Part shown: piece after piece, positions 41,558 to 62,774 of the stretch
Layout: the number at the start of each line of letters is the position of its first letter
Numbering within the stretch: position 1 is the stretch's first letter
Origin: Granulicella arctica
GTDB lineage: Bacteria; Acidobacteriota; Terriglobia; Terriglobales; Acidobacteriaceae
Length of the DNA stretch: 64,000 nucleotides
Assembly: GCF_013410065.1 (NCBI RefSeq)
Contig: NZ_JACCCW010000002.1
Coordinates: 1,240,001 to 1,304,000, forward strand
Direction of reading: 5' to 3'
Notes under the pieces: model-generated
The model's input: the letters and a program-made list of their open reading frames with translations, nothing else
Databases searched by the model: none
Told to the model about the DNA's origin: nothing
Made by a program: the position numbers and the translations under genes

Positions 41558-41567
41558 TCCTTTACGC

Positions 41568-41608: not shown

Positions 41609-41638
41609 GATGCTCTAAAACACTTTGCTTATGTTTCT

Positions 41639-42610: not shown

Positions 42611-42927
42611 CCTTTAGCCTCGGCAACGCACTCGGCCTTCGCCGAGACTGCGCACCCATCCCGTTCTTCGCGCACCATTCACTACAGTAAAACTACGTTC
42701 CCGGTCTACCGCCGGTTTTCCTGAAACATACAGCGGCGCGCGGCGCCTGGCTCCGATTCACATTCTACAAACATTCGCCAGGTAGCGCATCTTGTGTTGG
42801 ACGTGTTTCACCCGGCAGAAGTCACCTGCGCATCTCGTTCGTTACTCCTCGCGCCCGTCTACAATAGAGGTTTGTCGTCAGTTGACCGTAAATCGGGGAT
42901 CAGCCCCGCACGAAATACGAGGAACGA
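42611..42927. promoter_or_regulatory. Divergent promoter region, TonB-like gene and ileS
   Basis: No gene here. TACAAT at about 42,860 is a plausible -10 element for ileS, and a small hairpin (CGGGGATCAGCCCCG) lies between it and the ileS start. I see no T-box motif, so ileS is not evidently tRNA-controlled. Confidence 0.4.
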
Positions 42928-45825: not shown

Positions 45826-46322
45826 TGCGCACCCGCGACCACCGCCTCACTCTTCTCGCCCTCAGCGCCTTCGTCATCCTCGCCGACCGTCTCAGCAAAG
45901 ACTGGATCGTCGCCCACATTCCCGCCGGCTCCGCCATCACTGTCATCCCCAGGGTCTTCCGGCTCACGCACGTCCTCAACACCGGCGCAGCCTTCTCGCT
46001 CTTCGCAGACTCGCTCTCGCCACTCGCCGTGCGCAACATGCTCATCGCCTTCTCGGTCGTCGCCGTGCTTGTCGTCGGCGTCATGCTCTGGAACGTCGGT
46101 CGCGCCCTCAGCGTCACCTCCGTCGCTCTCGCACTCATCCTCGGCGGAGCCCTCGGCAATCTCTACGATCGCATTCACCTCAAGCACGTCGTCGACTTTC
46201 TCGAGGTCAAGATCGTCCATTACCACTGGCCCGACTTCAATGTCGCCGATAGCTGCATTGTCATCGGAGCCTGCCTGCTGCTGCTCGAAATCTTTCGCCC
46301 CCAACCCGCATCACAGGAATAG
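45825..46322 (+). CDS. lspA: Lipoprotein signal peptidase (signal peptidase II)
   Basis: The 165-residue aspartic protease with four transmembrane helices removes signal peptides of lipoproteins after Lgt action. Conserved blocks are present: NTGAAFSLF, GGALGNLYDRI with one catalytic Asp, and FNVADSCIVIG with the other. The ileS-lspA pairing is classical. The ATG overlaps the ileS stop codon by one base. Confidence 0.96.
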   Translation: MRTRDHRLTLLALSAFVILADRLSKDWIVAHIPAGSAITVIPRVFRLTHVLNTGAAFSLFADSLSPLAVRNMLIAFSVVAVLVVGVMLWNVGRALSVTSVALALILGGALGNLYDRIHLKHVVDFLEVKIVHYHWPDFNVADSCIVIGACLLLLEIFRPQPASQE

Positions 46323-46346
46323 AACGACAACCAACCCCAGGGATTA

Positions 46347-49334
46347 ATGAACGATCAGATCACAATTCGCGGCGCGCGCACACACAATCTCAAGGGCATC
46401 GACGTTGACATCCCGCACAATGCCCTCACCGTCGTCAGCGGCGTCAGCGGCTCCGGCAAATCCTCGCTGGCCTTCGACACCGTCTACGCCGAGGGCCAAC
46501 GCCGCTACGTTGAATCCCTCTCTGCCTACGCCCGTCAGTTCCTCGAACGCATCGAGAAGCCCGACGTCGACTTCATGGACGGCCTCGCTCCAGCCATCGC
46601 CATCAAGCAGAAGAACCAGACGCGCAACCCACGTTCCACCGTCGCCACCGCAACCGAGATCTACGACTACCTCCGCCTGCTCTACGCCCGCTGCGGCACC
46701 GTCACTTGCCTGCACTGCGGCGGCATCGTCCGCCACGACACCGTCGATGAGATCGTCACCGCACTCCTCGCTCTGCCCGCCGGAACCCGCACCTACGCGC
46801 TCTTCCCCATCATCCGCGCCGAGCTCAAACTCGAGCCGATGCAGGGCACGGCTACAGAAGAGACGGAGGCCCCAAGCACCACAAAAAAGACAGCAAAGAA
46901 AGCCGCCACCAAAAAAACAACTGCAACCGTTACAAACATCACCGACTCACTCAAAGAGCGTCTCGCCGAGCTCCGCCGCCGTGGCTACAACCGCCTCTAC
47001 CAAAGCGGCAAGATCGTCGAGTTCTCCACCCCTGAATCACTCCTCGAGCTTGATTTCGCTCAGCCCATCTTCGTCCTCATCGACCGCCTCTCCATCAGCC
47101 CAGACTCACGCGCAAGAATCGTAGACGCCATCGAGACCGGCTACCGCGAATCCGGCGAGGTCCAGTTCCACACTGCTCCCCGCGAAGGTGAAGGCGAGCC
47201 GCAGCACCTCCGTTACTCCGCCGCCTTCGAGTGCTCTACCTGCCATCGCGCCTACCGCGAGCCCGAGCCGCGCCTCTTCTCCTTCAACAACCCCTATGGT
47301 GCATGCCCACGCTGCCAGGGGTTCGGCAACACCATCGACTTCGACCCCAACCTCATCATTCCCGACAAATCGAAGACGCTCGATGAAGGCGCCATCGCTC
47401 CCTGGACCACTCCCAAATATCGCCCGCACCATGGCGAGATGCTCCGCGCCGCGAAGTCTGCGCACATCCCCACCAACGTCCCGTGGTACGACCTCACCGC
47501 CGTGCAGCAGCGCTTCCTCGAAGACGGCAGCGGCAGCTTTCCCGGCATCCGCGGCTTCTTCGCCGCGCTCGATCGCAAGAAATACAAGCTCCACGTCCGC
47601 GTCTTCCTCTCAAAGTACCGCGGCTATGCTCTCTGCCCCGACTGCCGTGGCCAGCGCCTCCGCGCCGAAGCTCGCGCCGTCCTCATCAACAGCATCAACA
47701 TCTGCGAGGCTTCCGCCCTCACCATCACCGCCGCGCAGCAGTTCTTCGACAATCTGCAACTGTCCCCGGCACAGACCGAGATCGCCGGAAAGATCCTCGA
47801 AGAGGTTCGCCAGCGCATCCACTTCCTCCATCAGGTAGGACTCGACTACCTCACACTCGACCGCCTCAGCTCTACGCTCTCCGGAGGCGAATCACAACGT
47901 ATCCAGCTCGCAACCAGCCTCGGCTCGCGTCTTGTCGGCGCACTTTATGTACTCGATGAACCAAGCATCGGCCTCCATACACGCGATACCGCGAAGCTCA
48001 TCCGCATCATGGAAGACCTCCGCGACCTCGGCAACACCATCCTCGTCGTCGAGCACGATCCCGACGTCATCCGCGCCGCTGACCACCTCCTCGATCTCGG
48101 CCCCGGCGCAGGCGAACTCGGCGGCCAACTCCTCGCCGCAGGCACCGTCGCCGAAGTCACCGCCGACCCCAACTCCATCACCGGGAAATATCTCTCCGGT
48201 CGCCTCACCATCCCTGTTCCGAAGCATCGCCGCGAGCCCGGCCGCGAACGCCTCAAACTCACCGGTGCCCGCATCCACAACCTCCGCGGCGTCGACCTCG
48301 ACATTCCCCTCGGCCTGCTCTGCTGCGTCACCGGAGTCTCCGGCTCAGGCAAGTCCACCATCGTCCACCAGGTCCTCTACCGCGCCCTGATGCAGGCCCT
48401 TGGTCAGACCGAAGGCGCCGACCCCGCTCACCTCTACCGCGAGCTCTCAGGCACCCAACACCTCAACGATGTCGTCCTCGTCGATCAGTCCCCCATCGGC
48501 CGTACCCCGCGCTCGAACCCCGTCACCTACATCAAAGCCTTCGACGACATTCGCGCCCTGTTCAGCGCCCAACCCGACGCCAAGCGCAAGAGCCTCACCC
48601 CCGGCCACTTCTCCTTCAACGTCCCCGGCGGCCGTTGCGATGTCTGCGAAGGCGACGGCACCGTTACCGTCGAGATGCAGTTCCTCGCCGACATCGAACT
48701 CCCCTGCGAAGAATGTAACGGCACACGTTACAAGAACTCCATCCTAGACATCAAGTACAAGAACAAGAACATCCATGACGTTCTCAACATGACCGTCAAG
48801 GAAGCCCTGTACTACTTCGCGGGCCATCCGAAGATCGTCGACAAGCTCTACGTGCTCGACGAGGTCGGCCTCGGCTATGTGCGTCTCGGCCAATCCGCCA
48901 CCACGCTCTCCGGTGGCGAAGCCCAGCGCGTCAAGCTCGCCTCGCACCTCGCCACCGCCCGCTCCACCAGCACCCGCGCCTCCAGCAACGAAGCCGCTAA
49001 GAAAGCCGCCAGCCGTACCCTCTACATCCTCGACGAGCCCACTACCGGCCTTCACTTCGACGACGTCGCCAAGCTCCTCAACGCCTTCCACAAGCTCATC
49101 GACGGCGGCGGCTCGCTCCTCGTCATCGAACACAACCTCGACGTCATCAAGTCCGCGGACTGGGTCATCGACATGGGCCCAGAAGGAGGCAGCGGCGGAG
49201 GCCAGATCGTCGCCGCCGGTACGCCTGAGCAGATCGCCACCAACCCTGCCAGCCACACCGGCCACTGGCTCGCCCCCGTCCTCAAGGCCGCCTCGGCCAC
49301 CCGCACCGCACACGCCGAAGAGATCCTTGCATGA
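46347..49334 (+). CDS. uvrA: Excinuclease ABC subunit A
   Basis: The 995-residue damage-recognition ATPase of nucleotide excision repair. Two ABC modules are visible: Walker A GVSGSGKSS at 32-40 and GVSGSGKST in the second half; two signature motifs LSGGESQRI and LSGGEAQRV; and zinc modules from CLHCGG, CSTCHR with CPRCQG, and CDVCEG with CEEC. An unusual Thr/Lys-rich insertion (about 167-200, STTKKTAKKAATKKTTATV) lies inside the first ATP-binding module. The TPR gene downstream overlaps its stop (ATGA). Confidence 0.96.
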   Translation: MNDQITIRGARTHNLKGIDVDIPHNALTVVSGVSGSGKSSLAFDTVYAEGQRRYVESLSAYARQFLERIEKPDVDFMDGLAPAIAIKQKNQTRNPRSTVATATEIYDYLRLLYARCGTVTCLHCGGIVRHDTVDEIVTALLALPAGTRTYALFPIIRAELKLEPMQGTATEETEAPSTTKKTAKKAATKKTTATVTNITDSLKERLAELRRRGYNRLYQSGKIVEFSTPESLLELDFAQPIFVLIDRLSISPDSRARIVDAIETGYRESGEVQFHTAPREGEGEPQHLRYSAAFECSTCHRAYREPEPRLFSFNNPYGACPRCQGFGNTIDFDPNLIIPDKSKTLDEGAIAPWTTPKYRPHHGEMLRAAKSAHIPTNVPWYDLTAVQQRFLEDGSGSFPGIRGFFAALDRKKYKLHVRVFLSKYRGYALCPDCRGQRLRAEARAVLINSINICEASALTITAAQQFFDNLQLSPAQTEIAGKILEEVRQRIHFLHQVGLDYLTLDRLSSTLSGGESQRIQLATSLGSRLVGALYVLDEPSIGLHTRDTAKLIRIMEDLRDLGNTILVVEHDPDVIRAADHLLDLGPGAGELGGQLLAAGTVAEVTADPNSITGKYLSGRLTIPVPKHRREPGRERLKLTGARIHNLRGVDLDIPLGLLCCVTGVSGSGKSTIVHQVLYRALMQALGQTEGADPAHLYRELSGTQHLNDVVLVDQSPIGRTPRSNPVTYIKAFDDIRALFSAQPDAKRKSLTPGHFSFNVPGGRCDVCEGDGTVTVEMQFLADIELPCEECNGTRYKNSILDIKYKNKNIHDVLNMTVKEALYYFAGHPKIVDKLYVLDEVGLGYVRLGQSATTLSGGEAQRVKLASHLATARSTSTRASSNEAAKKAASRTLYILDEPTTGLHFDDVAKLLNAFHKLIDGGGSLLVIEHNLDVIKSADWVIDMGPEGGSGGGQIVAAGTPEQIATNPASHTGHWLAPVLKAASATRTAHAEEILA

Positions 49335-50689
49335 ATATCCTAACGGCTCAAAAACAAGAAGAAGCGAAGCCGAAGTACCTGCGATTACTGTTGTGCCTGT
49401 TCCTCCTTGCACCCCTGGCGGCCAAAGCCCAGCTCCCTCCCGGCACCATCGACACCACCGCCGCGCCCCAGCCCGACCCCTCAGCCGCCCTCCGCACCCA
49501 AGCCACCGACGCCCTCGACAAGCAGGACTATCCCACCGCCCTCAAGCTCCTCTCGACCCTCGCCGAGCAGAACCCCAAAGACGCCCGCACCCTCTACGAT
49601 CTCGGCTTCACCGAAGACGCGCTCGACCATGAGCCCGAAGCGACAGCAGCCTATCAAAAATCCATCGCCGCCGACGCTACCTACTTCGAACCCCATCTAG
49701 CCCTCGGCCTCCTCCTCGCCCGCACCGGCAAGCTCTCCGAGGCCCATGCCGAACTCGCCGCCGCCGTCACCCTGACCACCCCCGACGGCACTCTCAAGGC
49801 CCGCGCCTACCGCGCCCTCGCCCGCCTCGACCAGACCACCGATCCCGCCGCCGCCAGCGACGATCTCCTCGAAGCCCTCAAGCTCTCCCCTGAAAGCGTC
49901 GAAGACGCCCTGCTCGCCGGAGAACTCGCCGAAGCCGCGCACGATCTTCCCGCCGCCGAGGGCACCTACCGCCGCATCCTCGCCACCCATGCGGACGATC
50001 CCGCCGTCACCGCCGCCCTCGCCCACCTTCTGCTCTCACTCAAACGAGCCCCCGAGGCCGAACCGATCCTCACCTCAGCTCTTGTCCGGCATCCAGGCGA
50101 CCCTACGCTCACCAGCCAGCTCGCCGCCACCGACGCAGCCGAAGGCAAAACCGCCGAAGCCATCGCTCTCATCGAAGAACTCCACACAGCTAGCCCCACT
50201 AATCCCAACCTCACCCGTCTCCTTGCTCATCTCTACAGCGACAACAAGCAGCCTGAGAAAGCCGCCCCGCTCTACGCCGATCTACTCAGCCTATCTCCCC
50301 AGGACGCCAGCCTTCTAGCCGATCAGGGCGCGACTCTTCTCCAGTTGCACAACTACGTCGAAGCCCAGAACGTCCTCACCCGAGCCATCTCCAATCCGAC
50401 AGCTTTCGCCAATCCAGTTGACCTGGGAAGCGCAGCCGAAAACCTCGCCTTCGCGGCATCGCACAACAATCATCCAGATATAGTCTTGCAAGCAGTCGCG
50501 GTTCGTGCTAAAGTGCTGCCAGATTCAGCAGCGTCCCTGTTCCTTGCAGCAACTGCGAATGACTCACTGCACCACGTCAAGCAAGCGTCCGAGTTGTACA
50601 AACAGTTTCTGGCCATCGCGGCCGGAAAATATCCAGATCAGGAGTGGGAGGCCAGCCACCGGCTTATCGCTCTCCAACACATGAGGTAG
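49331..50689 (+). CDS. Exported TPR-repeat protein
   Basis: The 452-residue protein has a signal peptide (YLRLLLCLFLLAPLAAKAQ) and then about nine tetratricopeptide repeats, for example ALDKQDYPTALKLLSTLAEQ and DLGFTEDALDHEPEATAAYQ, which form a superhelical protein-binding scaffold in the periplasm. Its ATG overlaps the uvrA stop. The DNA encoding the signal peptide (49,361-49,413) closely resembles the interspersed repeat family, suggesting the leader arose from a repeat. Function unknown. Confidence 0.85.
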   Translation: MNILTAQKQEEAKPKYLRLLLCLFLLAPLAAKAQLPPGTIDTTAAPQPDPSAALRTQATDALDKQDYPTALKLLSTLAEQNPKDARTLYDLGFTEDALDHEPEATAAYQKSIAADATYFEPHLALGLLLARTGKLSEAHAELAAAVTLTTPDGTLKARAYRALARLDQTTDPAAASDDLLEALKLSPESVEDALLAGELAEAAHDLPAAEGTYRRILATHADDPAVTAALAHLLLSLKRAPEAEPILTSALVRHPGDPTLTSQLAATDAAEGKTAEAIALIEELHTASPTNPNLTRLLAHLYSDNKQPEKAAPLYADLLSLSPQDASLLADQGATLLQLHNYVEAQNVLTRAISNPTAFANPVDLGSAAENLAFAASHNNHPDIVLQAVAVRAKVLPDSAASLFLAATANDSLHHVKQASELYKQFLAIAAGKYPDQEWEASHRLIALQHMR

Positions 50690-50712
50690 AAAGCGCTCCT
50701 TCGAGGTGCGTT

Positions 50713-51192
50713 ATGGGCCGCCTTCCTGGTTGTTCTCTCGTCTCTGCCTTAGTTCTCATCTCAATACTGATCCTCGCTCAGCCTCTTCCCTGCCACGCCG
50801 CCACGACCGATGCCACCCTGCTCGACGCCACCACGATCGCCGAGATGGAAGCACGGGCCCAGCAGGCCAAGCCCCGCGAACAGTGCTTTCTCTACACTCA
50901 GCTCGTCCACTCCATGACCGAGCTCGCCGGTCACCAGATGCTCGTCGGCGATACCGATAGCGCCACCGCCACCCTCAAACGTGTCCAGCACTATGCACTG
51001 CTTATTCACCTCGGCCTCGCCAATGACACAAAACGCCTGATGAACGCGCAGTTGCTCATGCACACCACAACACGCCGCCTTGGCGAGTTTGTCCAAAGCA
51101 CCCCCTTCGAGGATCGCGATACGATGGTGGCGACGCTCAAGCAGCTAACCAAGGTCGAAGACGAGCTGCTGACTCAGGTCTTCTCCCACTAG
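50713..51192 (+). CDS. Exported protein of unknown function
   Basis: A 159-residue product starting at ATG 50,713 after GAGG. A signal peptide (CSLVSALVLISILILAQPLP) is followed by an all-helical domain (IAEMEARAQQAKPREQCFLY, MVATLKQLTKVEDELLTQVF). It looks like a secreted helical bundle. It lies just after the TPR gene and before a second, similarly sized exported helical protein; the three may form one envelope operon. No family recognised. Confidence 0.7.
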   Translation: MGRLPGCSLVSALVLISILILAQPLPCHAATTDATLLDATTIAEMEARAQQAKPREQCFLYTQLVHSMTELAGHQMLVGDTDSATATLKRVQHYALLIHLGLANDTKRLMNAQLLMHTTTRRLGEFVQSTPFEDRDTMVATLKQLTKVEDELLTQVFSH

Positions 51193-51213
51193 CCCTTACC
51201 GTCCTCGTCAACG

Positions 51214-51750
51214 ATGCGCAGACGCCTGATCCTCGCCCTCCTGCTTCTGACCATCGCTCCGCATCTCCACGCCCAACGGGAGAGTTCCGCCATGAGCGAC
51301 GCCGAGGTCGAGCAACTCCGCGACTCGGCCTACGTCGCCAACGACCGCGTCCTTGTCTTCATCAAGTTCCTCGACGAACGCTCCCAATCGATCCAGACCC
51401 TCACCACCGGACCACGCAAACCAGGACGTGAGGCGGACATTCACGACATGCTCCAGCAGTTCACCAGCATCGCCGACGAGCTCAACGACAACCTCGACGA
51501 GTACGGCCCCGCCCATCGCGACATGCGCAAGGCCCTGCCCAAGCTCCTCAGCGCCACCGAGCGATGGGCTACCATCCTCAAATCCCCCGCCGACAACGAG
51601 ACCTACAACGTCTCCCGCAAGCTGGCTCTCGAGTCTGTCCGCGACCTCCGCGAGGCCGCCAGCCAACTCATTGAAGACCAGCGCACGTGGTTCGTCACGC
51701 ACCCTCCTCCCAAAGAAAGCAAAGGCGAACCCCTCACCATCCCACGCTAA
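51214..51750 (+). CDS. Exported helical protein of unknown function
   Basis: The 178-residue product has a short signal peptide (RRRLILALLLLTIAPHLHAQ) and then helices rich in charged residues (VEQLRDSAYVANDRVLVFIK, MLQQFTSIADELNDNLDEYG). It begins 21 bases after the preceding exported gene and is probably co-transcribed with it. The two proteins are similar in size and layout but not clearly homologous. Function unknown. Confidence 0.7.
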   Translation: MRRRLILALLLLTIAPHLHAQRESSAMSDAEVEQLRDSAYVANDRVLVFIKFLDERSQSIQTLTTGPRKPGREADIHDMLQQFTSIADELNDNLDEYGPAHRDMRKALPKLLSATERWATILKSPADNETYNVSRKLALESVRDLREAASQLIEDQRTWFVTHPPPKESKGEPLTIPR

Positions 51751-51799
51751 AAGCGCCCCAAAACCTACTATTCAAGAAAACTCCATAACCCGCCACAAA

Positions 51800-51850
51800 C
51801 TGTCATCCTGAGCAAAGTGCGCAGCACGGAGTCGAAGGACCTGCGGTTGT
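51800..51850 (+). repeat. Interspersed repeat, copy 8
   Basis: CTGTCATCCTGAGCAAAGTG through GTCGAAGGACCTGCGGTTG, followed by TATTTGCAGCTGCCTGTTC. Confidence 0.9.
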
Positions 51851-52115
51851 ATTTGCAGCTGCCTGTTCTTTGTTTGTCACTCCATCGTTCAGCAAAGGAA
51901 TCCACCTTTTGCCATCCCATCTTCTAAAATGAAACCAGGACACCAGAGAGACCACACTGAGCCACACGAAACAACCCGGCCCCCTGCGCCTCTTCCTGCA
52001 ACTCTTTGCGCCCGAGCCTGCCCCACCACCACCGGTCGTCCTTTCCTCACCAAAGCCAAAGCGCCCGCGCCTCCCAAAACCTCCATCCGCGTCGCACCTT
52101 ATCGAAATATTTGAA

Positions 52116-52772
52116 TTGGAGTACCGCGAGCTCCGCCCCCGTGCGCCAATTCCTGCGCTCGATATCCGCTTCCGCCGCTTCACCTCGCTCAACACGACCA
52201 TTCGCCTCCGCGAAGGCCGCTTACATGTTCGCCTGTCGGACCTTCTCGAGTCCGCGCCAGAGTCCGTCCACCACGCCATCGCTCACATCCTTCTCGCCAA
52301 GCTCTACAAAAAGCCCATCTCTCCCACCCACGCGGACCGCTATCGCCGCCATACCTCGTCGGAGACTGTCTCCAAGCAAGCCGAACACATCCGTCAGACC
52401 CGCGGCCGCAAACGTATCTCCACCCCGCAGGGACACCGCTACGATCTCGACGAGGTCTTCGAGAGCCTCAACACACGCTTTTTTCACGGCCTGCTCGGTC
52501 GCCCCACTCTTACCTGGAGCGCCCATCATGCCAAACGCATGCTGGGACACTACGACGCCGCCCACAACACCATCGTCGTCAGCCGCGTCTTCGACCGCCC
52601 CGACACTCCTCGATGTGCCATCGAGTATCTGCTGTATCACGAGATGCTCCACCTCAAGCATCCCGTCCGGGTCAAAGCAGGTCGCCGCTGCGTCCACTCG
52701 AAGGAGTTCCAGGCCGAAGAGCGCCTCTTCCCCCAGTTAAACGAAGCAAAAGCTTACCTGCGCCGACTTTAG
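52116..52772 (+). CDS. SprT-like zinc metallopeptidase
   Basis: The protein has the SprT-like metalloprotease layout: RYDLDEVFESLNTRFFHGLL, then TLTWSAHHAKRMLGHYD, and the zinc site YHEMLHLKHP (HExxH). The third ligand may be His in RCVHSKEFQ. SprT-like proteins act on DNA-protein crosslinks or are uncharacterised. The start is unclear: TTG at 52,116 gives 218 residues, but the same frame is open and Pro-rich back to about 51,935, where only a CTG (51,957) could start it. Convergent with lgt. Confidence 0.8.
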   Translation: MEYRELRPRAPIPALDIRFRRFTSLNTTIRLREGRLHVRLSDLLESAPESVHHAIAHILLAKLYKKPISPTHADRYRRHTSSETVSKQAEHIRQTRGRKRISTPQGHRYDLDEVFESLNTRFFHGLLGRPTLTWSAHHAKRMLGHYDAAHNTIVVSRVFDRPDTPRCAIEYLLYHEMLHLKHPVRVKAGRRCVHSKEFQAEERLFPQLNEAKAYLRRL

Positions 52773-52786
52773 TAACATCCATCAGC

Positions 52787-52817
52787 CCATGCTATTAGCT
52801 TTTCGCTAATAGCATGG
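52787..52817. repeat. Perfect 13-bp hairpin near the strand-composition switch
   Basis: CCATGCTATTAGC and GCTAATAGCATGG flank a TTTTC loop. It sits between convergent sprT-like and lgt genes, so it may be a terminator, but there is no T-run. Its place beside the composition switch and the parS-like palindrome makes a structural role possible. Confidence 0.7.
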
Positions 52818-52857
52818 ACGACACTCCCGCCGCCATTCAATCCATGGAAGCACCCCC

Positions 52858-52881
52858 TGAATGTTCCACGTGGAACATTCA
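52858..52881. promoter_or_regulatory. parS-like palindrome
   Basis: A perfect 24-bp palindrome with core TGTTCCACGTGGAACA at 52,862-52,877. The bacterial parS consensus bound by chromosomal ParB is TGTTtCACGTGaAACA, with variants at those positions. It overlaps the last codons and stop of lgt. No other copy was seen in the window. Confidence 0.65.
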
Positions 52882-53682
52882 GGAAGCCGTGGAACCTTTT
52901 CTGGCCCCCACTGCGAGCATCACGATTGCACCGACGACCATGGAGCCGATGGCTGCGACCTGGGCGTTGCTCATTCCCCAGTAGATGCGGGGGTTGATGC
53001 GGACAAACTCTACCAGGAATCTGCCTAAGCCGCTGAGGAGGAGGTAGAGGCCAGTGAGCCACCCAAGTGGTCGGACCTTTCGCCCTAGACGCCAGAGTAA
53101 CCAAGCGAGGGCCAGGGAGAATAGCAGCTCGTAGATGGGGGTGGGCTGGACGAGGTTCGGAGTGGGGACGAGCGCGTCTGGACGCATATGTACGCCCCAG
53201 GGAAGGTGTGTTGGGATGCCATAGTCTCCGTCGCCCGAGGTGAGACATCCGATGCGGCCTACGCCGTAGCCGATGGCAGCGGCTGGGGCGGCAAGATCGA
53301 GCATGCGAATTGGTCCTACCTTAGCGATTCGCCCTTGCCACATCAACATGGCAACACCGGCGAGCATGCCGCCGAACCAGGCGAATCCTGCCTGGAACCA
53401 GTGCAGAAAGGCGACCAGCACCTTGAGGGGCTGATGCCAGCCTGGCGCGGAGATCTCCCGCATGGCAAAGCGGAGATCAGGGATGTTCTGTAGCTCGTGC
53501 CAGACCTTTGCGCCGATGACACCGGCGACGACGACCATGGCGACGACATTCAAAGCGTCGGCGTCCACACCATGACGAAGAAAGTTTTTATGCAGAACGA
53601 CAGTTGCTGCAACCGCGGCCAACCACAAGAGCAGACCGAACGTGCCCAGGTGCACCGGGCCGATATTGATATAGGGATACAT
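52879..53682 (-). CDS. lgt: Prolipoprotein diacylglyceryl transferase
   Basis: The 267-residue, seven-helix inner-membrane enzyme transfers diacylglycerol to the lipobox Cys. The signature lies in GYGVGRIGCLTSGDGDYG, with PTPIYELLFSLALAWLLWRL and a C-terminal GLGRFLVEFVRINPR. The start at 53,682 (MYPYINIGPVHLGTFG) matches the family; the frame is open further upstream to 53,763. Together with lspA it completes lipoprotein processing in this window. Its stop codon lies inside the parS-like palindrome. Confidence 0.93.
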   Translation of the reverse strand: MYPYINIGPVHLGTFGLLLWLAAVAATVVLHKNFLRHGVDADALNVVAMVVVAGVIGAKVWHELQNIPDLRFAMREISAPGWHQPLKVLVAFLHWFQAGFAWFGGMLAGVAMLMWQGRIAKVGPIRMLDLAAPAAAIGYGVGRIGCLTSGDGDYGIPTHLPWGVHMRPDALVPTPNLVQPTPIYELLFSLALAWLLWRLGRKVRPLGWLTGLYLLLSGLGRFLVEFVRINPRIYWGMSNAQVAAIGSMVVGAIVMLAVGARKGSTAS

Positions 53683-53763
53683 ACGCCTCTCAGCTTCAAG
53701 TATAGCGATCCGAGGGCATGAGCCTTCCCCTGCACCCTCCATTCGCGCTAACCTTACGTTCAT

Positions 53764-54327
53764 ATGCCTTCCAGTCCGCTCCAGTTCCCTCCCGCCGCCT
53801 CCATGGATGTTCTCTACTCGAAGACGCAGATCGCCGAGCGCGTTGCCGCCATCGGAAAACAGATCTCAGAGGACTATGAAGGCCAGTCCATCGTTCTGAT
53901 TGGCGTCCTCAAGGGCGCTGCGATCTTTCTTGCCGACCTTGCGCGGGCCATCACGGTCGATGCGACCTTCGACTTCGTTGCGGTTTCGAGCTACGGGCGG
54001 GCACGGGTTTCTTCTGGCGCGGTGAAGCTGATCAAGGACATCGACAACCCGATCGAGGGTAAGCATGTGATTTTGGTCGAGGACATTCTCGATACCGGGT
54101 TGACGCTGAGCTACCTGCGCGGCCTGATGCTCCAGCACAAGCCTGCGTCCCTCAAGATCGCTACTTGCCTTGATAAGCCCGAGCGACGTCTTGTTCCGAT
54201 TGAAGCGGATTATGTGGCGTTCAGCATTCCTAATGCGTTTGTGATTGGTTATGGGATGGACTATGCGGAGCGCTACCGGAACGTCGAGGACATTCGGCTG
54301 ATGCCTCCTGAGGTTGGCGGCCACTAA
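53764..54327 (+). CDS. hpt: Hypoxanthine phosphoribosyltransferase
   Basis: The 187-residue type-I phosphoribosyltransferase salvages hypoxanthine or guanine to IMP or GMP. The PRPP loop is VILVEDILDTGLTL; FVAVSSYGRARVSSGAVKLI and VLKGAAIFLADLARAI are the other conserved segments. It is divergent from lgt. The N-terminal about 13 residues (SSPLQFPPAAS) are extra, so MDVLYSKTQ may be the true start. Confidence 0.95.
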   Translation: MPSSPLQFPPAASMDVLYSKTQIAERVAAIGKQISEDYEGQSIVLIGVLKGAAIFLADLARAITVDATFDFVAVSSYGRARVSSGAVKLIKDIDNPIEGKHVILVEDILDTGLTLSYLRGLMLQHKPASLKIATCLDKPERRLVPIEADYVAFSIPNAFVIGYGMDYAERYRNVEDIRLMPPEVGGH

Positions 54328-54353
54328 AAAAGAACAAACAACAACAAAGGCCA

Positions 54354-54394
54354 ATGCAGGTCCTTCGACTCTGCGCTTTGCTCAGGATGACAGT
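54354..54394 (-). repeat. Interspersed repeat, copy 9 (inverted)
   Basis: Reverse complement reads ACTGTCATCCTGAGCAAAGC through AGTCGAAGGACCTGCATT. This and copy 10, right of the composition switch, are on the minus strand while copies 1 to 8 are on the plus strand. Confidence 0.9.
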
Positions 54395-54439
54395 GTTTTG
54401 GGTGGATGGGAGAGAACAGGCAACGACAAAGGCATCGTC

Positions 54440-55489
54440 TTACGGATGCGCTTCTATCTCGAAGGCTTTGGCGAGGAGCTTGTAGCTTCGCAGGCGAGCT
54501 TTATGGTCCCAAACGATGGTGTTGACGATCAGCTCCCGGAGGCCTAGAGCACTGGCCATCTGTTCCAGATCCGACCGCACTTTGGCGGGGGGGCCGACGA
54601 AGTAGCGGGGCCACTCACCTTCCTCGGTCTTGAGTCCGGCGGCAGTTCCGGGCTCGCCCAGGAGCTTCAGTTCGCGGAGCGCCTGCTCAGGTTGGGCAAC
54701 CGGACTGCGGTCTCCCTGGCGGATGCGGTACTGGAGTAGGCGGACACTGGCGTGGAGGAACTCGGCCTCTTCCTGGGTCTCCGCGCAGATGACACCGACG
54801 GCTACGGTCGCCTCGGGGGCATCGCGGCAGGTGCTCATGAGGAAGCTACGCTTGTAGGCCTCGATGGCAGAGCGGGTGTTGACGGGGCTGAAAAAGTGGG
54901 CGAAGGAGTAGGGCAGGCCGAACTCGGCTGCGGCAGCGGCGCTCCACATGCTGGAGCCGAGGAGCCAGACATCGGGGCCGCCGGGCATATCGGGAGCGAC
55001 ACTTATCCTGGAAAAAGGATGGTCGTTCGGGAAGCCGTGGTTGAGGAACGCCTGTAGCTCCTCGACCTGTTGGGGGAAGTCGTCCAGCATTTTGGTGTTG
55101 CGGTCGCGTTTAAGCGCAAGAGCCTCTACCGGGCCGCCGCCGGGGGCACGGCCTATGCCGAGATCGACGCGACCGGGATAGAGGGCGTGAAGCATACGGA
55201 AGCACTCCGCCACTTTAAGGGGGGTGTAGTGGGGCAGCATGATGCCACCAGCACCGATGCGGATACGACGTGTCTCCGCGCCGATGCGAGCGAGCATGAC
55301 CTCTGGGGCGGTGCAGGCGAGGGTTCCCATGGCGTGATGCTCGGACATCCAGAAGCGATGGTAGCCAAGCGCCTCGACGTGACGGGCGAGTTCGATGGAG
55401 CGCTGGAGCGCGTCCGCAGGTGTGCTGCCGACCGAGACGGGAGACTGGTCGAGCACTGAAAGCCGTACTTTTGTGGGATCTTTTTCCAT
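54440..55489 (-). CDS. LLM-class flavin-dependent oxidoreductase
   Basis: A 349-residue TIM-barrel monooxygenase of the luciferase-like (MsnO8-type) group. LSVLDQSPVSVGSTPADALQ at the start, FWMSEHHAMGTLACTAPEVM, IRIGAGGIMLPHYTPLKVAE, YPGRVDLGIGRAPGGG and VWLLGSSMWSAAAAAEFGLP are family landmarks. The ATG at 55,489 (MEKDPTKVRLSV) is preferred. It uses FMN or F420 on an unknown substrate. It stands alone. Confidence 0.92.
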   Translation of the reverse strand: MEKDPTKVRLSVLDQSPVSVGSTPADALQRSIELARHVEALGYHRFWMSEHHAMGTLACTAPEVMLARIGAETRRIRIGAGGIMLPHYTPLKVAECFRMLHALYPGRVDLGIGRAPGGGPVEALALKRDRNTKMLDDFPQQVEELQAFLNHGFPNDHPFSRISVAPDMPGGPDVWLLGSSMWSAAAAAEFGLPYSFAHFFSPVNTRSAIEAYKRSFLMSTCRDAPEATVAVGVICAETQEEAEFLHASVRLLQYRIRQGDRSPVAQPEQALRELKLLGEPGTAAGLKTEEGEWPRYFVGPPAKVRSDLEQMASALGLRELIVNTIVWDHKARLRSYKLLAKAFEIEAHP

Positions 55490-55701
55490 GACTTTAGTTA
55501 GATGTTGGAACTCGCGAAAAGAATGAGCCAACACGCTGACACGAAAGCAGTGGATTTAGCGGACAATCATGCAGCCTTTCGGGTGACACCTCAGAGGCAG
55601 GGGTCGCGCCGCTTGCCTATCGAAGCTTCGGCCAGCTAGTCTCAGAACTGGCAGGACATGATCCGGCGCGCTTCATCTTTCCCCCGTCGGAAGGAGTACC
55701 T

Positions 55702-56475
55702 TTGAGCACAGTTTCGGTTTCCAATCACTCCACCTATGACGCAGCCGCCTTTGCCGCGCAGGCGTTGGCTTCACCACAAAATCTGGCTGCGGTGCTGGAC
55801 CACACGCTACTGCGCCCGGACGCAACGCGCTCCCAGGTGATTCAACTGTGCGAAGAGGCGGCGGAGCATAAATTTGCCTGCGCGATGGTGAATCCGACAT
55901 GGGTTGCGACGGCGGCGCAGACACTGGCGGGGACAGGTGTACCGGTAGGGGTCGTGATTGGCTTTCCGCTAGGAGCTACGTTGTCGAGCTCGAAGCGCGA
56001 CGAGACGGTGCGGGTACTGAAGCTGGGCGCGCATGACGTGGATATGGTGCTCAATGTCGGGTTACTGAAGTCGGGCAAGCCGGAGGACTTCGAAGCGGTG
56101 AAGCAGGATATCCGTGGGGTGGTGGAGCTGGCGCATGGCAGCGGAGCGATTGTGAAGGTGATTCTGGAGACGTGCCTGTTGAGCTTTGAGGAGAAGCTGC
56201 GGGCATCGGAGCTGGCGCTTGCGGCGGGAGCGGACTTTCTGAAGACGAGCACTGGTTTTTCGACTGGCGGGGCGACGACGGACGATATTGCGCTGATGCG
56301 AGGGGCTGCGGGAGTGAATGCAGGGGTGAAGGCATCGGGGGGGATACGGTCGCTGGCGGATGCGTCGGCGATGCTGTATGCGGGAGCCAGCCGAATTGGG
56401 GCGAGCGCGAGCGTCAAGATACTGGCGGAGCTGGGTGGACAGGCTCCGGCGGCAACAGCGGGGTCGGGATACTGA
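55702..56475 (+). CDS. deoC: Deoxyribose-phosphate aldolase
   Basis: The 257-residue class-I aldolase splits 2-deoxyribose-5-phosphate into glyceraldehyde-3-phosphate and acetaldehyde. Asp114 (VDMVLNVG), Schiff-base Lys181 in [14 protein letters not shown] and Lys210 (VKASGGIR) are in place. The start is TTG, with AAGGAG seven bases upstream. I found no riboswitch in the 212-base leader. Possibly monocistronic; the GAF/PP2C gene follows 69 bases later. Confidence 0.95.
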
Positions 56476-56544
56476 TCTCTGATAACTGCCTGTGTACGGG
56501 TGGGAGCGCTCCACAGGCCGTGAAATAGTATCATCGCAACTTCG

Positions 56545-58428
56545 ATGGCCAAGAGCGACAAGTCGAGACGAGCCGGTACGCCCGGTGCCGATCCACCAAG
56601 AGCGGAGGATCACTTCGAGGGGGATTACCGCCCTCCGTTGCAGGAGCACGCGCTTGTGCCGGAGCCTAATCCGCATATTCGCGTGGAGCCATTGCAGGTG
56701 GAGTTTTTGCACCGGCTGGCGGATGCTCTGAATACGACGCTGGATGTGAATACGCTGATGCACAAGGTTGCGGACCTGGTGCGGGCGGTAATCGACTATC
56801 GAATCTTCGCGATCCTGCTGCTGAACGACCGCACGAACGAGCTGCGGATGCGCTTCCAGAGCGGGCATACGCCGGAGATCGAGCGGCTGCGGATCAAGAT
56901 TGGGCATGGTGTCGTGGGGCAGGCTGCGCTGCAACGGCGGTCGCTGCTAATCGAAGATGTTTCGACGTTTCCGCAGTATATTGACGCGAACCCGAATGTG
57001 AAGTCGGAGCTGGCGGTGCCACTGATCATGAAGAACAAGGTGATCGGCGTGCTGGATCTGCAATCGGAGCAGCCTGGGTTCTTCACGACGGAGCATCGGA
57101 GGTTGCTGGAGCTGACGGCGTCGCGGATGTCGACGGCTATCGAGAACGCACGGCTGTATACGCGTGTCTCGCGCCAGGCGGAGACGCTGAGCGTGCTGAA
57201 CGACATCTCGCGGGAGATCACGAGCATCCTGGACCCGGACGATCTGCTGGAGCGGATCGGGCAGTTGCTGAAACGGGTGATCGACTTCCAGATGTTCACG
57301 ATTCTGCTGTGGAACGAGCGGGAGGAGCAGTTCGAGCATCGGTTTTCTTCGCGGTATGGCGAGCGCATTGCGAAGGTTCGCACGGTGCAGCTGGGACAGG
57401 GACTGATCGGCGTGGCGGCTGAGGAGCGGATACCGATCCTCGCGCCGGATGTGCGGAAGGACAGCCGCTATATCGCGGAGAATCCTGAGACGCGTTCAGA
57501 GCTGTCGGTGCCGCTGATCTACAAGGGCAAGGTGATCGGGGTGATGGACCTCGAACATACGCGGGTGAACTACTACAACGAGGAGCATCAGCGAACTCTG
57601 AGCACGCTGGCGGCTCAGGTTGCGATCTCGATTGCGAATGCGCGGCTGTACCAGCGCATCCACGAGGAAGAGCAGCGGATGGAGCGCGATCTGGAGATGG
57701 CACGGCAGGTGCAGTTACGGCTGCTGCCGGGTTGTCCTCCGAAGCTGGAACGCGCTGAGATCGCGGCGAGATTTCTTCCGGCGCGGTCGATCGGCGGCGA
57801 TGTGTACGACTTTCTCGACTATGGGAATGGGCGGGTTGCGTTGGCGGTGGGGGATGTTTCGGGCAAAGCTGCGCCGGCGGCGTTGTATGCGGCACTGGTG
57901 TCGGGGATACTGCGTTCGCTTGCTCCGCAGCGGTTGTCGGCGGGGGCTCTTCTGGCAGCATTGAACGACCAGTTGCAGGAGCGGAAGCTGGCCTCGCAGT
58001 ATGTGACGATGCTGATTGCTGTGTGGGACGACAGCGTGCAGACGTTGCAGATTGCGAATGCGGGATCGGTGCAACCGCTGTACGTGACGGCGGATGCGGC
58101 TAGCTTGACGAATGCGATCGACGTGCGAACGATCCCGGTGGAGGGGTTTCCGCTGGGACTGTTTCCTAACGTGATGTATGAGGAGAGGACGCTAACGACT
58201 CGGCCGGGCGACATGGTGGTCTTCTTCTCGGATGGCATTGTGGATGCGAACGACTCACGGGGCGAAATGTTCGGCTCTGAACGGCTGAGCACGTTGTTAC
58301 AGCATCATCCAACAGCTACGGATAGCGCGATGGCAGCGGTGGAGGCCATTCTGGATGCGGTTTCCCTATTCCAGGCGGGGACGGAGCACTTCGACGATGA
58401 GACGGTCCTGGTGTTGCGGGTTTTGTAG
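56545..58428 (+). CDS. GAF-GAF-PP2C serine phosphatase (RsbU type)
   Basis: The 627-residue signalling protein has two GAF domains (about 65-205 and 225-375), a short coiled segment (EEEQRMERDLEMARQVQLRL) and a SpoIIE/RsbU PP2C phosphatase domain: IGGDVYDFLDYGNGRVALAV, GDVSGKAAPAALYAAL and VFFSDGIVDANDSRGEMFG carry the metal-binding Asp residues. Such enzymes dephosphorylate anti-sigma antagonists in partner-switching systems. No anti-sigma or STAS gene is adjacent. GAF ligands are unknown. Confidence 0.92.
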   Translation: MAKSDKSRRAGTPGADPPRAEDHFEGDYRPPLQEHALVPEPNPHIRVEPLQVEFLHRLADALNTTLDVNTLMHKVADLVRAVIDYRIFAILLLNDRTNELRMRFQSGHTPEIERLRIKIGHGVVGQAALQRRSLLIEDVSTFPQYIDANPNVKSELAVPLIMKNKVIGVLDLQSEQPGFFTTEHRRLLELTASRMSTAIENARLYTRVSRQAETLSVLNDISREITSILDPDDLLERIGQLLKRVIDFQMFTILLWNEREEQFEHRFSSRYGERIAKVRTVQLGQGLIGVAAEERIPILAPDVRKDSRYIAENPETRSELSVPLIYKGKVIGVMDLEHTRVNYYNEEHQRTLSTLAAQVAISIANARLYQRIHEEEQRMERDLEMARQVQLRLLPGCPPKLERAEIAARFLPARSIGGDVYDFLDYGNGRVALAVGDVSGKAAPAALYAALVSGILRSLAPQRLSAGALLAALNDQLQERKLASQYVTMLIAVWDDSVQTLQIANAGSVQPLYVTADAASLTNAIDVRTIPVEGFPLGLFPNVMYEERTLTTRPGDMVVFFSDGIVDANDSRGEMFGSERLSTLLQHHPTATDSAMAAVEAILDAVSLFQAGTEHFDDETVLVLRVL

Positions 58429-58485
58429 CTTTGGAGGCTATCCCCCAGACTGACGGATAGCCGCATAGGATTTACGATAGAAGGA

Positions 58486-59790
58486 ATGTCCACACAGACT
58501 TCTTCTCTCCAGATTGTTCGTCCTGCACGCTCGTTTCAGGGCTCGGTTACACTTCCCGGCGACAAATCCATCTCTCACCGGTATGCGATGCTCGCCGGTC
58601 TGGCTAAGGGCACGACGCGTCTCTCGAATTTTTCCACCGGGGCCGATCCCCATTCCTCGCTGAGCTGCATGGAGGCGCTGGGCGCGACGGTAGACAAGAG
58701 CAACAAGGACTACATCGCCGTAACCGGCGTGGACGGTAGCTTTCGCGCGGCGGATGTGCCGCTGGATTGCGGCAACTCGGGGTCGACGATGCGGATGCTC
58801 GCGGGGCTGATTGCGCCGCATGCGCATACGTACACGATGATCGGCGATCACTCTCTGACGCTGCGTCCGATGGAGCGTATTCGCAAGCCGCTCTCGCAGA
58901 TGGGCGCAAGGATCGATCTGGTGGAGGGTCATGCTCCGATCACGATCCATGGAGGGCCACTGAAGGCGATCGACTTCGATACGCCGATTCCTTCGGCTCA
59001 GGTGAAGACGGCGGTGCTGTTCGCGGGCTTGCAGGCGGAGGGGACGACGTCGCTGTCGGAGTCGATCCGCACGCGGGACCACTCGGAGCATGCACTGCGG
59101 GCGTTTGGAGCAACGCTGACGCGAACGGGCGATAAGCTGTTGATTCCGGGCGGGCAAAGGCTCTCGGCAATCGACGCGACTGTGCCAGGGGATCTCTCTT
59201 CAGCGGCGTTCTTTCTTTGTGCGGCGCTGCTGTTTCCGGACTCGAATCTGGTGCTGGATTCGATTGGGATGAATCCTACGCGCTCTGCTCTGCTCGATGT
59301 GATCGTTGCGCTGGGTGGGACGATCAAGGTACTCAATGTAGAGGAGCATCATGGCGAGATGATCGGGACGATCCAGGTGAACCGTGCGCCGGGCGGACTG
59401 AAGGGAATCGATATTGGTGGGGCGTTGTCTGCGCAGTTGATCGATGAATTGCCGGTGCTTGCGGCGATTGCACCGTATACGCGGGATGGAATTCGCATCC
59501 GCGATGCGAAGGAGTTGCGGGTGAAGGAGTCGGACCGGATTGCGCTGGTTGCGAAGAACCTGAAGGCGATGGGCGCGGAGCTGACGGAGTATGAGGATGG
59601 GCTCGATATTCCGGGCAACCAGGAGCTGCATGGCGCGGCGATCGACTCGGGTACGGACCATCGGATTGCGATGGCGTTCTCGATCGCAGCGTTGCGGGCT
59701 GTGGGTGAGACGGAGATTCATGGAGCAGAGGCAGCGGCGATCTCGTTTCCGGAGTTCTTCACACATCTTGATGGGTTGAGCCAGCGCTAA
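58486..59790 (+). CDS. aroA: 3-phosphoshikimate 1-carboxyvinyltransferase (EPSP synthase)
   Basis: The 434-residue enzyme joins shikimate-3-phosphate and phosphoenolpyruvate in the aromatic amino acid pathway. LPGDKSISHRYAML with Lys27, LDCGNSGSTMRMLAGL, and LRVKESDRIALVAKNL are diagnostic, and the two-domain repeat is complete. It stands 57 bases after the phosphatase gene; its stop overlaps the convergent glycosyltransferase gene by four bases. Confidence 0.96.
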   Translation: MSTQTSSLQIVRPARSFQGSVTLPGDKSISHRYAMLAGLAKGTTRLSNFSTGADPHSSLSCMEALGATVDKSNKDYIAVTGVDGSFRAADVPLDCGNSGSTMRMLAGLIAPHAHTYTMIGDHSLTLRPMERIRKPLSQMGARIDLVEGHAPITIHGGPLKAIDFDTPIPSAQVKTAVLFAGLQAEGTTSLSESIRTRDHSEHALRAFGATLTRTGDKLLIPGGQRLSAIDATVPGDLSSAAFFLCAALLFPDSNLVLDSIGMNPTRSALLDVIVALGGTIKVLNVEEHHGEMIGTIQVNRAPGGLKGIDIGGALSAQLIDELPVLAAIAPYTRDGIRIRDAKELRVKESDRIALVAKNLKAMGAELTEYEDGLDIPGNQELHGAAIDSGTDHRIAMAFSIAALRAVGETEIHGAEAAAISFPEFFTHLDGLSQR

Positions 59791-60935
59791 CGCGGAAGAT
59801 GATCAACGTTCGCGAGAGACCGCTGGATGCGGCTCTCGCGGGCCTTTAGTGATGCGGGATACTTCAACAGAAGTTCGTTGAGAGCCGCGATAACGCTGTC
59901 GGCGGAGATCTCGTCGAGATGATAGTTGGATGGAACGGTGTCGCGATCTTCGCCGCGGAGGATGCGGACGTTCTCGATGCCCAGGGGAAGCCATTCGAGC
60001 GGCTTCTGCCAGGAGGGGCCGAGCACCACCATGGGAACACCGGTGGCGCGGCCAACGTGCATGGTTCCGGTATCGAGCGTGACCATGACATCGCTCATAG
60101 CGAGCACTGCTGCGAGTTGGGTTACGGTGGTTTTTCCGGCGATGGAGGTGCCGATGCCATTGGCAGCCTGCGAGAGGGCCTCGATGGGATTGACGTCTGC
60201 TGCGGTGCCGACGTAGACGACCGTGCAGCCACGTGTGTGTGCCGCCTTGATGACCTGTACAAAGCGATCGGAGTGCCAGCCGGTGCTCTGGCCGCCGCTG
60301 TTGGCTGTGACCATGATGACGATCGGATTACCTTGCGGGTTGGCCTGTCGCAGGAGGGAAGCTGCCGCTTCTGCGTCACTTTGAGAGAAAGAGACGTGAG
60401 GTTCTTTTATTTGCGGAGTACAGTCGAGGAGCTTGGCGAGACGAAGGTTGTTGTTGATGAGGCTCAAGGTTCGGTCGTAGACGAGTGGCCTCTGGTAGAG
60501 TGCAGGCTTCTGCGTGTAGCCGCCGCGCCATCCGCTTGATGCGAAGAGGCCGAGGAGGGAGATTCTGGTGCGCTGATCGGAGGCTCCGGTCAAGACACAG
60601 TCTGGGGTGAAGTTGAGCGTGCGAAGGGCGTGGCGCAGATGCTTTACGGTAGAGCAAAGATCGATCAGAGGATCTGGCGTCTCAATCAGATGATCGATGA
60701 ACGGAGAGTGACGTAAAACCTGGGAGCCGAGACCACGGGTTGCGACTGCGATGCAGAGTTCGGGGCGACAGCGCTTCAGGGCTTCAAACAGCGGAGTCAG
60801 ATGTACGCAGCAGCCGAGCGGAAGCCGGTACTCAAGGATGAGAAGTTGTCTGACCTGCGCGGGTGCAACCTGTTTCTTTCTAACTATGCGCTCGAGGGCG
60901 AGCAGAACAGGAGACAGCATGGATCTCTCTTTCAT
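59787..60935 (-). CDS. Glycosyltransferase family 9 (heptosyltransferase-like)
   Basis: The 382-residue GT-B protein resembles LPS heptosyltransferases: an N-terminal domain with LLILEYRLPLGCCVHLTPLF, and a C-terminal nucleotide-sugar site with SDVMVTLDTGTMHVGRATGV, then PMVVLGPSWQKPLEWLP. The Asp-Thr-Gly-x-x-His pattern is typical of GT9. Acceptor unknown, probably the LPS core or a surface glycan. It is divergent from the GT4 gene next to it. Confidence 0.88.
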   Translation of the reverse strand: MKERSMLSPVLLALERIVRKKQVAPAQVRQLLILEYRLPLGCCVHLTPLFEALKRCRPELCIAVATRGLGSQVLRHSPFIDHLIETPDPLIDLCSTVKHLRHALRTLNFTPDCVLTGASDQRTRISLLGLFASSGWRGGYTQKPALYQRPLVYDRTLSLINNNLRLAKLLDCTPQIKEPHVSFSQSDAEAAASLLRQANPQGNPIVIMVTANSGGQSTGWHSDRFVQVIKAAHTRGCTVVYVGTAADVNPIEALSQAANGIGTSIAGKTTVTQLAAVLAMSDVMVTLDTGTMHVGRATGVPMVVLGPSWQKPLEWLPLGIENVRILRGEDRDTVPSNYHLDEISADSVIAALNELLLKYPASLKARESRIQRSLANVDHLPR

Positions 60936-61012
60936 GATGACTGTCTCTCGATTGTACCGACGGAGGGGGCATCGCTATCTGCTAGGATGGCCTCAGAAAG
61001 CAGCCTTTTTCC

Positions 61013-62185
61013 ATGAACGTTACTCAAGCGGTCTTTGGTGTGTTTCATCACTTCGAACTGGCACACCAGTTGCACAAGCGAAATCATCTACAGAAGATCT
61101 ACTCGACGTGGCCGTGGGCGCGGTTGAAGCGGGAGGGGTTACCGCGTTCGCTTGTGGGCTGCTTTCCGTTGATCCATACGACGGATTATCTGCTGGGGCG
61201 GACGCGATTCTATCCGGCAGCGGTTTCCGCGGTGATGAATTCGTGGAATGCGCGGGGATTCGACTGGTGGACGCGGAGTGTGATTCAGCCGTGCGATGCG
61301 TTCATTGCGATCTCGGGCGCGGGGTTGCTGACGGGCGCGAAGGTGCAGGCAAATGGTGGGAAATTTATCTGCGATCGGGGCTCGACGCATCAGCGATACC
61401 AGGAGAATTTGCTTGCGGAGGAGTATCGGCGGTGGAACGCTCCGCAGCCTTTGAGCAAGCCGCATATCGCTGTGCGTGAAGAGGCTATCTATGCTCGGGC
61501 CGATGCGATTACGGTGCCGTCGAGTGTAGCGAAGCGGTCGTTTATCCAAATGGGAATCCCTGCTGAGAAGGTGCATGTGATCCCGTATGGGGTGCGGCTT
61601 GACCAGTTCGCACGAACGGTGGAGCCGCCGACGGATTCGTTCGAGGTGTTGTTTGCCGGACAGGTGAGTCTTCGCAAGGGGATACCGTATCTGCTGGAGG
61701 CGTTCTCGCGGCTGAAGCACCCGAAGAAACGTCTGACGGTCGTGGGGAGTGTGCAAGATGATGTGCGTGGCCTGCTCGGCAAGCTGCCGCAGGAACATGT
61801 GACCTTTACGGGATCCATCCCACAGGCGGAGCTTGCGAAGAAGATGAGCGCGAGCCATCTGCTGATGCTGACGAGCGTCGAAGAAGGGCTTGCGTTGGTG
61901 CAGGGGCAGGCGATGGCGTGTGGCTGTCCGGTGCTGGCGACGACCGCGACGGGCGCGGAGGACTTGTTTACGGATGGGGTTGAGGGGTTTATCGTTGCGG
62001 ATCGCGATGTGGATGCGTTAGCGGCGCGGTTGCAGGAGATTGCGGATGATCCGGCGCTACAGTCGCGACTGAGTGAGGCAGCTCTGCTTCGCGTGAAGAG
62101 TCTGGGTGGGTGGGATCGGTACGGGGAGATTTGGGACAGGCTGTTGCATGGGTTGACTGGGTTGCCGCATAAGGCGGAGAGGTAA
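61013..62185 (+). CDS. Glycosyltransferase family 4
   Basis: A 390-residue GT-B enzyme. The C-terminal half shows EVLFAGQVSLRKGIPYLLEA, then ASHLLMLTSVEEGLALVQGQ and AMACGCPVLATTATGAEDL, the GT4 donor site with the ExxxxxxxE pair. The N-terminus lacks a signal or membrane segment. It probably adds a sugar to a surface polysaccharide together with the divergent GT9 gene. Donor and acceptor unknown. Confidence 0.9.
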   Translation: MNVTQAVFGVFHHFELAHQLHKRNHLQKIYSTWPWARLKREGLPRSLVGCFPLIHTTDYLLGRTRFYPAAVSAVMNSWNARGFDWWTRSVIQPCDAFIAISGAGLLTGAKVQANGGKFICDRGSTHQRYQENLLAEEYRRWNAPQPLSKPHIAVREEAIYARADAITVPSSVAKRSFIQMGIPAEKVHVIPYGVRLDQFARTVEPPTDSFEVLFAGQVSLRKGIPYLLEAFSRLKHPKKRLTVVGSVQDDVRGLLGKLPQEHVTFTGSIPQAELAKKMSASHLLMLTSVEEGLALVQGQAMACGCPVLATTATGAEDLFTDGVEGFIVADRDVDALAARLQEIADDPALQSRLSEAALLRVKSLGGWDRYGEIWDRLLHGLTGLPHKAER

Positions 62186-62202
62186 AACGAACAAAGGCAA
62201 AG

Positions 62203-62240
62203 GCAACCGCAGGTCCTTCGGCTACGCTCAGGATGACAGT
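62203..62240 (-). repeat. Interspersed repeat, copy 10 (inverted)
   Basis: Reverse complement reads ACTGTCATCCTGAGCGTAGC then CGAAGGACCTGCGGTTGCC, followed by TTTGCCTTTGTTC. It lies between convergent GT4 and BFN-domain genes. Confidence 0.9.
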
Positions 62241-62251
62241 TTTTGGGTGGG

Positions 62252-62773: not shown

Positions 62774-62774
62774 C

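Follow-up and report, generated by a model that had tools for sequence, protein, structure and literature searches.

Origin-like strand-composition switches at scattered parS copies in an Acidobacteriaceae genome

Most bacteria are thought to initiate replication at a single DnaA-dependent origin, with parS close by. Multi-origin chromosomes of archaea and eukaryotes display an abrupt skew jump at their origins followed by a gradual return, and the Noc sites of Bacillus are dispersed palindromes bound by a ParB paralogue; we know of no strand-composition switch at Noc sites. The 16-mer studied here, TGTTCCACGTGGAACA, presumably belongs to the same 16-bp palindrome class as the chromosomal parS of Caulobacter, Bacillus and Pseudomonas. 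Caulobacter tolerates a second parS cluster within a region of ~500 kb around the native one (PMC5815017), and some cyanobacteria (Synechocystis, Nostoc) have been measured to replicate independently of DnaA from several origins (PMC7198777). The main text of the latter contains no mention of parS. Among the matches listed, no open-access title or abstract opening described parS scattered over an acidobacterial chromosome, or a change of skew at parS.

The genome described here, from the Acidobacteriaceae, comprises 4,305,353 bases in two large contigs (C1 and C2) and a 1-kb piece that reads N. The window, that is, the whole stretch of 64,000 nucleotides analysed, corresponds to C2:1240001-1304000.

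The lgt locus and its strand-composition switch

A first-pass annotation of the window had proposed that the plus strand changes from C-rich to G-rich at about 52.8 kb. GC skew in 2-kb windows bears this out, with values of about -0.28 to the left of 52.8 kb that rise to about +0.2 within a few kilobases rightward. Five of the six base counts made by hand were exact, and the remaining row (53161) reads G25/C13, not G24. The left side is indeed C-rich, back to about 23.5 kb only; further left, GC content is lower and skew is near zero. Gene direction does not account for the switch, as had been stated, and an effect of that kind is ruled out by fourfold sites, which shift in genes of both strands. 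The features of the locus are as follows.

23500..52850, no strand: C-rich side (negative GC skew) with housekeeping genes, from the skew profile and gene matches
42928..45825, plus: ileS-like gene for a class I aminoacyl-tRNA synthetase, within the C-rich side
46347..49334, plus: uvrA-like gene, on the C-rich side
51800..51813, plus: repeat core CTGTCATCCTGAGC, last copy left of parS; further left, copies at 36894, 37009, 38143 and 39734, all plus
52116..52772, plus: conserved open reading frame to the left of parS, carrying an HExxH motif on inspection by eye; we label it "SprT-like"
52787..52817, no strand: 13-bp perfect hairpin with a 5-nt loop, between two convergent genes; z -6.48
52862..52877, no strand: perfect parS TGTTCCACGTGGAACA at the centre of a perfect palindrome of 28 bp, separated by 1 bp from the stop codon of lgt; identical to the 11 main-origin copies
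52879..53763, minus: lgt, prolipoprotein diacylglyceryl transferase (PF01790)
52890..64000, no strand: G-rich side (positive GC skew), from the skew profile
53764..54327, plus: phosphoribosyltransferase (PF00156); "hpt" is our label
54380..54393, minus: repeat core CTGTCATCCTGAGC, nearest copy on the right of parS; another, also minus, at 62226

The palindrome first noticed at the switch is real, with a length of 28 bp (52856-52883) instead of 24 bp, and the parS-like reading of its core is supported by a sequence identical to the copies around rsmG-parA-parB. The perfect 13-bp hairpin is exactly as described (arms 52787-52799 and 52805-52817) and is the only perfect stem of at least 13 bp with a loop of 3-10 nt in the window. 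When the flanks of the other perfect parS copies were searched out to 250 bp, the sole other perfect stem of at least 10 bp was a terminator-like one beside C2:866577. This search rules out the hairpin as a component common to parS sites, and the hairpin is probably a local element that forms no part of the parS feature. The reading frame at 52116..52772 had no Pfam match at 0.001 and no NCBIfam match at 0.1, and an Rfam search of positions 50000-56000 returned no match at E 0.1. A mobile element as the source of the C-rich block was rejected, as the block carries genes of housekeeping type. At the other end of the window, the segment 1-23500, with its lower GC and near-zero skew, ends by a tRNA-Met gene (23252-23328, minus strand) and has the look of a genomic island.

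The absence of dnaA and of a DnaA box cluster from the vicinity, also stated at first pass, was confirmed: dnaA lies at C1:1111967 (C1:1.11 Mb), on the contig other than the window's, and no boxes with at most one mismatch occur within 1 kb of the window parS. The genes rsmG and parA lie at C1:1125.5-1129.9 kb together with that for a ParB of three domains (ParB_N, HTH and C-terminal), with 11 perfect parS around and beside them (C1:1.11-1.13 Mb), and the encoded ParA is complete. Inside this parS cluster, fourfold skew moves from -0.79 to +0.79, the strongest switch evaluated. The C1 region, with its dnaA, parAB, 11 parS and strongest switch, is taken as the main origin. Because these genes and parS copies are located on the other contig, the window site is not the main origin, and this part of the earlier origin reading is discarded; what stands is that the pattern seen locally resembles that of an origin, and the majority of parS clusters share it. 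At the window parS, a local negative-to-positive leading/lagging switch of the kind expected of a replication origin is present, and most genes to the left would run head-on to forks leaving parS, as the gene list confirms. The genome also encodes an SMC and has two PF00075 matches in a search for RNase HI, which rule out RNase HI loss (R-loop origins). A second ParB_N domain is found at C1:329014-329289, in a 695-aa open frame away from the ParABS locus.

The best named Lgt matches come from Granulicella, Edaphobacter and other Acidobacteriaceae, in a list that may omit this genome's own records. Of 80 named loci, 23 with too little flank were left out of the jump count and 57 were used. Only one locus, that of Granulicella aggregans M8UP14 (L180), has a parS beside lgt; the other 79 have no parS anywhere in the fetched stretch. 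The skew jump at lgt is +1.22 in the window and +0.88 in L180 (+0.93 over 10 kb), against a mean of -0.005 (sd 0.179, range -0.521 to 0.433) in the 56 loci without parS. Furthermore, the genes at 53764, lgt, 52116 and 49331 are all present in 41 of the 80 loci, in the order seen in the window. Gene order is thus unbroken across the parS position in relatives without parS, which rules out a local inversion at the window and contradicts, at this locus, the inversion endpoint that the first-pass annotation had offered as its alternative. Within the genus, no perfect parS adjoins lgt in the 11 genomes with all parS places listed (of 14 searched for lgt), including G011, whose Lgt is the nearest among those 14 (84%). 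The G011 locus (L250, without parS) displays a weak, diffuse change from -0.28 to 0.00 that fits neither reading neatly. The window and L180 are united in 52% of bootstrap trees, and parS may have been gained by them once or twice.

Perfect parS copies and polarity across the genome

A search of the 4.3-Mb genome for further parS copies, as had been suggested, found 38 perfect occurrences of TGTTCCACGTGGAACA (27 on C1 and 11 on C2), and a backwards-read control of the same 16-mer had none in the genome. These copies fall into 20 clusters placed round the whole chromosome, and all but the one at the origin, 19 in number, lie elsewhere; for a chromosomal parS, usually expected in the origin region, this distribution is atypical. 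Among relatives, 27 of 40 carry at least one copy, with 0 to 15 per genome in 24 same-genus genomes. Some also have scattered parS, among them Granulicella aggregans M8UP14 with nine scattered places, and others a single cluster, such as Terriglobus roseus (L184), with three copies together. No exact DnaA box occurs at 22 positions near scattered parS, and near-matches amount to 0.27 per 2 kb, equal to background. Many scattered copies lie either a few bases from the predicted end of a gene or in the gap of a convergent pair. Several occur in twos, ~20-33 bp apart.

Skew was evaluated on 2.82 Mb of the genome, read in stretches. Since stretches were fetched around sites and reading is therefore denser near parS, the random controls include parS surroundings. 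The raw GC-skew jump, taken between flanks of 8 kb, averages 0.276 at the 20 clusters against 0.009 (sd 0.132) at random positions, where the highest of 20,000 sampled means was 0.122. The 19 non-origin clusters have a mean of 0.251, with 18 of 19 positive, and none of 11,376 circular shifts reached as high, with ~9.5 sites evaluable per shift. Summed over these 19 clusters, fourfold skew within 10 kb is -0.47 and -0.40 on the left and +0.20 and +0.47 on the right in genes of either strand. Genes pointing outward number 130 of 285, and gene orientation therefore cannot cause the shift; at gene boundaries more than 30 kb from parS, convergent ones have a mean fourfold jump of 0.099 and the other three types about 0.

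By our reading, 16 of the 19 clusters shift at fourfold sites. In five of these (C1:900462, C1:1021126, C1:1249928, C2:866577 and C2:998161) one side is near zero and not reversed, and little or no shift is seen at C1:387835, C2:1598307 and C2:1958626. Across the 19 clusters, outward fourfold skew rises from 0.24 in the first 1 kb to 0.44 at 4-6 kb, then drops to 0.15 at 20-25 kb and to zero at 25-30 kb. The effect peaks at 4-10 kb and is gone by 25-30 kb, a short range for free-running forks, and the same fade with distance is found in the GC-rich part alone. Five imperfect parS with one or two mismatches had no switch, with outward fourfold skews of 0.08, -0.28, 0.04, -0.27 and 0.02. The relation between copy number, counted by hand, and switch strength in the 19 clusters is only suggestive (rho 0.42, p 0.07). 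With the three non-switching clusters left out, the trinucleotide-context spectrum correlates with that of the main origin at r 0.91 (G-centred) and 0.93 (A-centred), against 0.76 and 0.80 for strongly skewed blocks far from parS.

Over the 65% of the genome that was read, GC skew changes sign in a patchwork, and the strongest single jump evaluated falls at the C1 parS cluster. Of the 1417 gene boundaries evaluated, 98 lie within 3 kb of parS. This distance holds for 10 of the 12 negative-to-positive jumps above 0.9, the main origin included, and for 16 of the 30 above 0.6; none of the 14 positive-to-negative jumps beyond 0.6 falls within 3 kb of parS. Sharp opposite pairs without parS also occur, for example at C1:864668/884870 and C1:391824/405299, as short blocks that are possibly true inversions or insertions.

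A polar intergenic repeat adds a further marker of direction. Its core, CTGTCATCCTGAGC, has 177 copies that merge into 110 elements, 109 of which follow local polarity in their orientation, and the rule holds however the neighbouring genes are arranged. At the window parS the orientation flips, from five plus copies on the left to two minus copies on the right. Of the 31 elements no more than 25 kb from a scattered parS, 28 fit; the three misfits comprise two at C2:1958626, which has no switch, and one inside the C1:753-755 kb cluster. Counted by copies, the repeat is polar 160:0. Decayed versions agree 10 to 1 in a transition-degenerate search and 37 to 3 when one mismatch is allowed. Hardly any decayed copies point the wrong way, which rules out polarity as an artefact of the decay of such copies. 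In the loci of relatives, a shorter repeat core agrees with polarity in 15 of 16 cases. A classical REP hairpin was rejected, as two CTGTCATCCTGAGC copies fold no better than shuffles, and the genome holds one Y1-transposase match. Some IS200/IS605 family elements target the lagging-strand template (PMC6006769), and insertion orientation can therefore record fork direction. The repeat is accordingly a candidate fork-direction recorder, or else a candidate polar guide sequence under selection.

The generality of the switch across species is only partly supported, because two sites agree weakly over 8 kb and ten average nothing over 1.5 kb. The two (in G023 and G003), picked before their letters were seen, have fourfold jumps of +0.54 and +0.76 over 8 kb, each singly within the random spread of this genome (sd of outward skew at random places 0.233). 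G041 and G012 have 17 scattered places, and the ten of these taken at 1.5 kb on each side have a raw mean of 0.023 and fourfold jumps from -0.33 to +0.44; by our own mean, the same span averages ~0.5 at the 19 sites of this genome. Among those ten, L240 corresponds to the site of L180, where a jump is seen once 8-10 kb are taken, and two others are not perfect 16-mers. The 1.5-kb data suggested a switch limited to this genome, an idea overturned in part by the 8-kb pieces.

Candidate causes of the polarity

We consider the chances about even that the palindrome works as a chromosomal parS, one of some 20 scattered loci, and that at the majority of these loci replication forks set out both ways from parS or its vicinity. 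After some 10-50 kb they would run into forks that began elsewhere, and each such parS would lie at the centre of a small leading/lagging-strand domain; the short range of the effect would mean that these forks soon meet others or fire late. Fork divergence at parS is the simplest reading because it fits neutral composition, the context spectrum, the one-sidedness of the jumps, the unbroken synteny here and the orientation of the repeat. We infer from these sequence patterns that the polarity records fork direction, that initiation is its cause and that ParB (or ParB-loaded SMC) is involved. A more far-reaching version is possible, though doubtful: a clade of Acidobacteriaceae may replicate from many sites, with ParB on the scattered parS serving as an initiator independent of DnaA, or as the loader of one. 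Partition and initiation would then form a single system, and the polar repeat would record or guide fork directions.

The main rival to fork divergence is a ParB/SMC-driven polarity without initiation, in which SMC, once loaded at parS, moves outward and its direction is followed by damage or repair biased to one strand, or by selection for polar guides. We regard it as unlikely, yet it has points in its favour: the limited range of the effect, the weak dose trend with parS copies, the complete ParA and ParB and the SMC encoded here, and the lack of DnaA boxes at scattered parS. The one-way orientation of the repeat is also what a guide sequence would display, KOPS being the polar guide sequence for FtsK. 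However, the asymmetry shares the context spectrum of the main origin and sits in fourfold sites, and we know of no process whereby SMC makes strand-specific mutations. A historical version, in which the loci fired formerly and composition is a fossil at sites now inactive, is a good deal less likely. Skew would be expected to lag behind function, some parS such as C2:1958626 have no switch, and relatives' sites have none on average at short range; against this, the window parS is perfect although the fourfold sites around it have turned over relative to relatives, and this contrast suggests present use.

The patchwork of skew signs, together with the close and sharp opposite pairs among some switches without parS, speaks for each switch being a rearrangement endpoint, produced perhaps by recombination between parS copies. 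Yet gene order is intact across the window parS in relatives without parS, at the locus where synteny was compared, and inversions should yield both kinds of endpoint equally, whereas the sharp jumps at parS are negative-to-positive only. Inversion mediated by parS is therefore not the general cause, and we rate rearrangement as improbable. Long bidirectional transcription outward from parS would give the same strand bias, with GC and AT skew presumably matching in sign, but it requires read-through over tens of kilobases against many genes and leaves the insertion orientation of the repeat unexplained; we give this account hardly any credence, and fork divergence from parS continues to be our preferred reading.

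Comparison with described systems

Origin-like shifts at most parS copies hint that some bacteria may initiate replication at more places than believed. If fork divergence is correct, the genome would be an example, in a bacterium, of a chromosome with several origins linked to its partition machinery; alternatively, the switches would be a first sign of ParB/SMC loading shaping strand composition. Both readings are open to direct test in culturable relatives such as Granulicella aggregans.

The cyanobacterial systems resemble the present case as bacteria with an irregular skew profile (PMC7198777), and differ in that replication from several origins was measured there; here dnaA is present and the switches are tied to parS. 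The chromosomes of archaea and eukaryotes with several origins are matched in the excess of sharp negative-to-positive jumps (30 above 0.6) over sharp returns (14), and in small saw-teeth between neighbouring sites, for example at C2:842-866 kb and, with 10 kb unread, at C2:1754-1794 kb. Unlike them, this is a bacterium whose sites carry a centromere motif. The resemblance to Noc lies in dispersed palindromes of ParB-family type, with binding predicted here, whereas the sequence itself is parS and is identical to the copies at parAB. Finally, the 11 perfect copies around rsmG beside parA and parB correspond to the origin-proximal parS of the ParABS systems of Caulobacter, Bacillus and Pseudomonas, and the difference from those systems is that the parS copies of this genome go round the entire chromosome.
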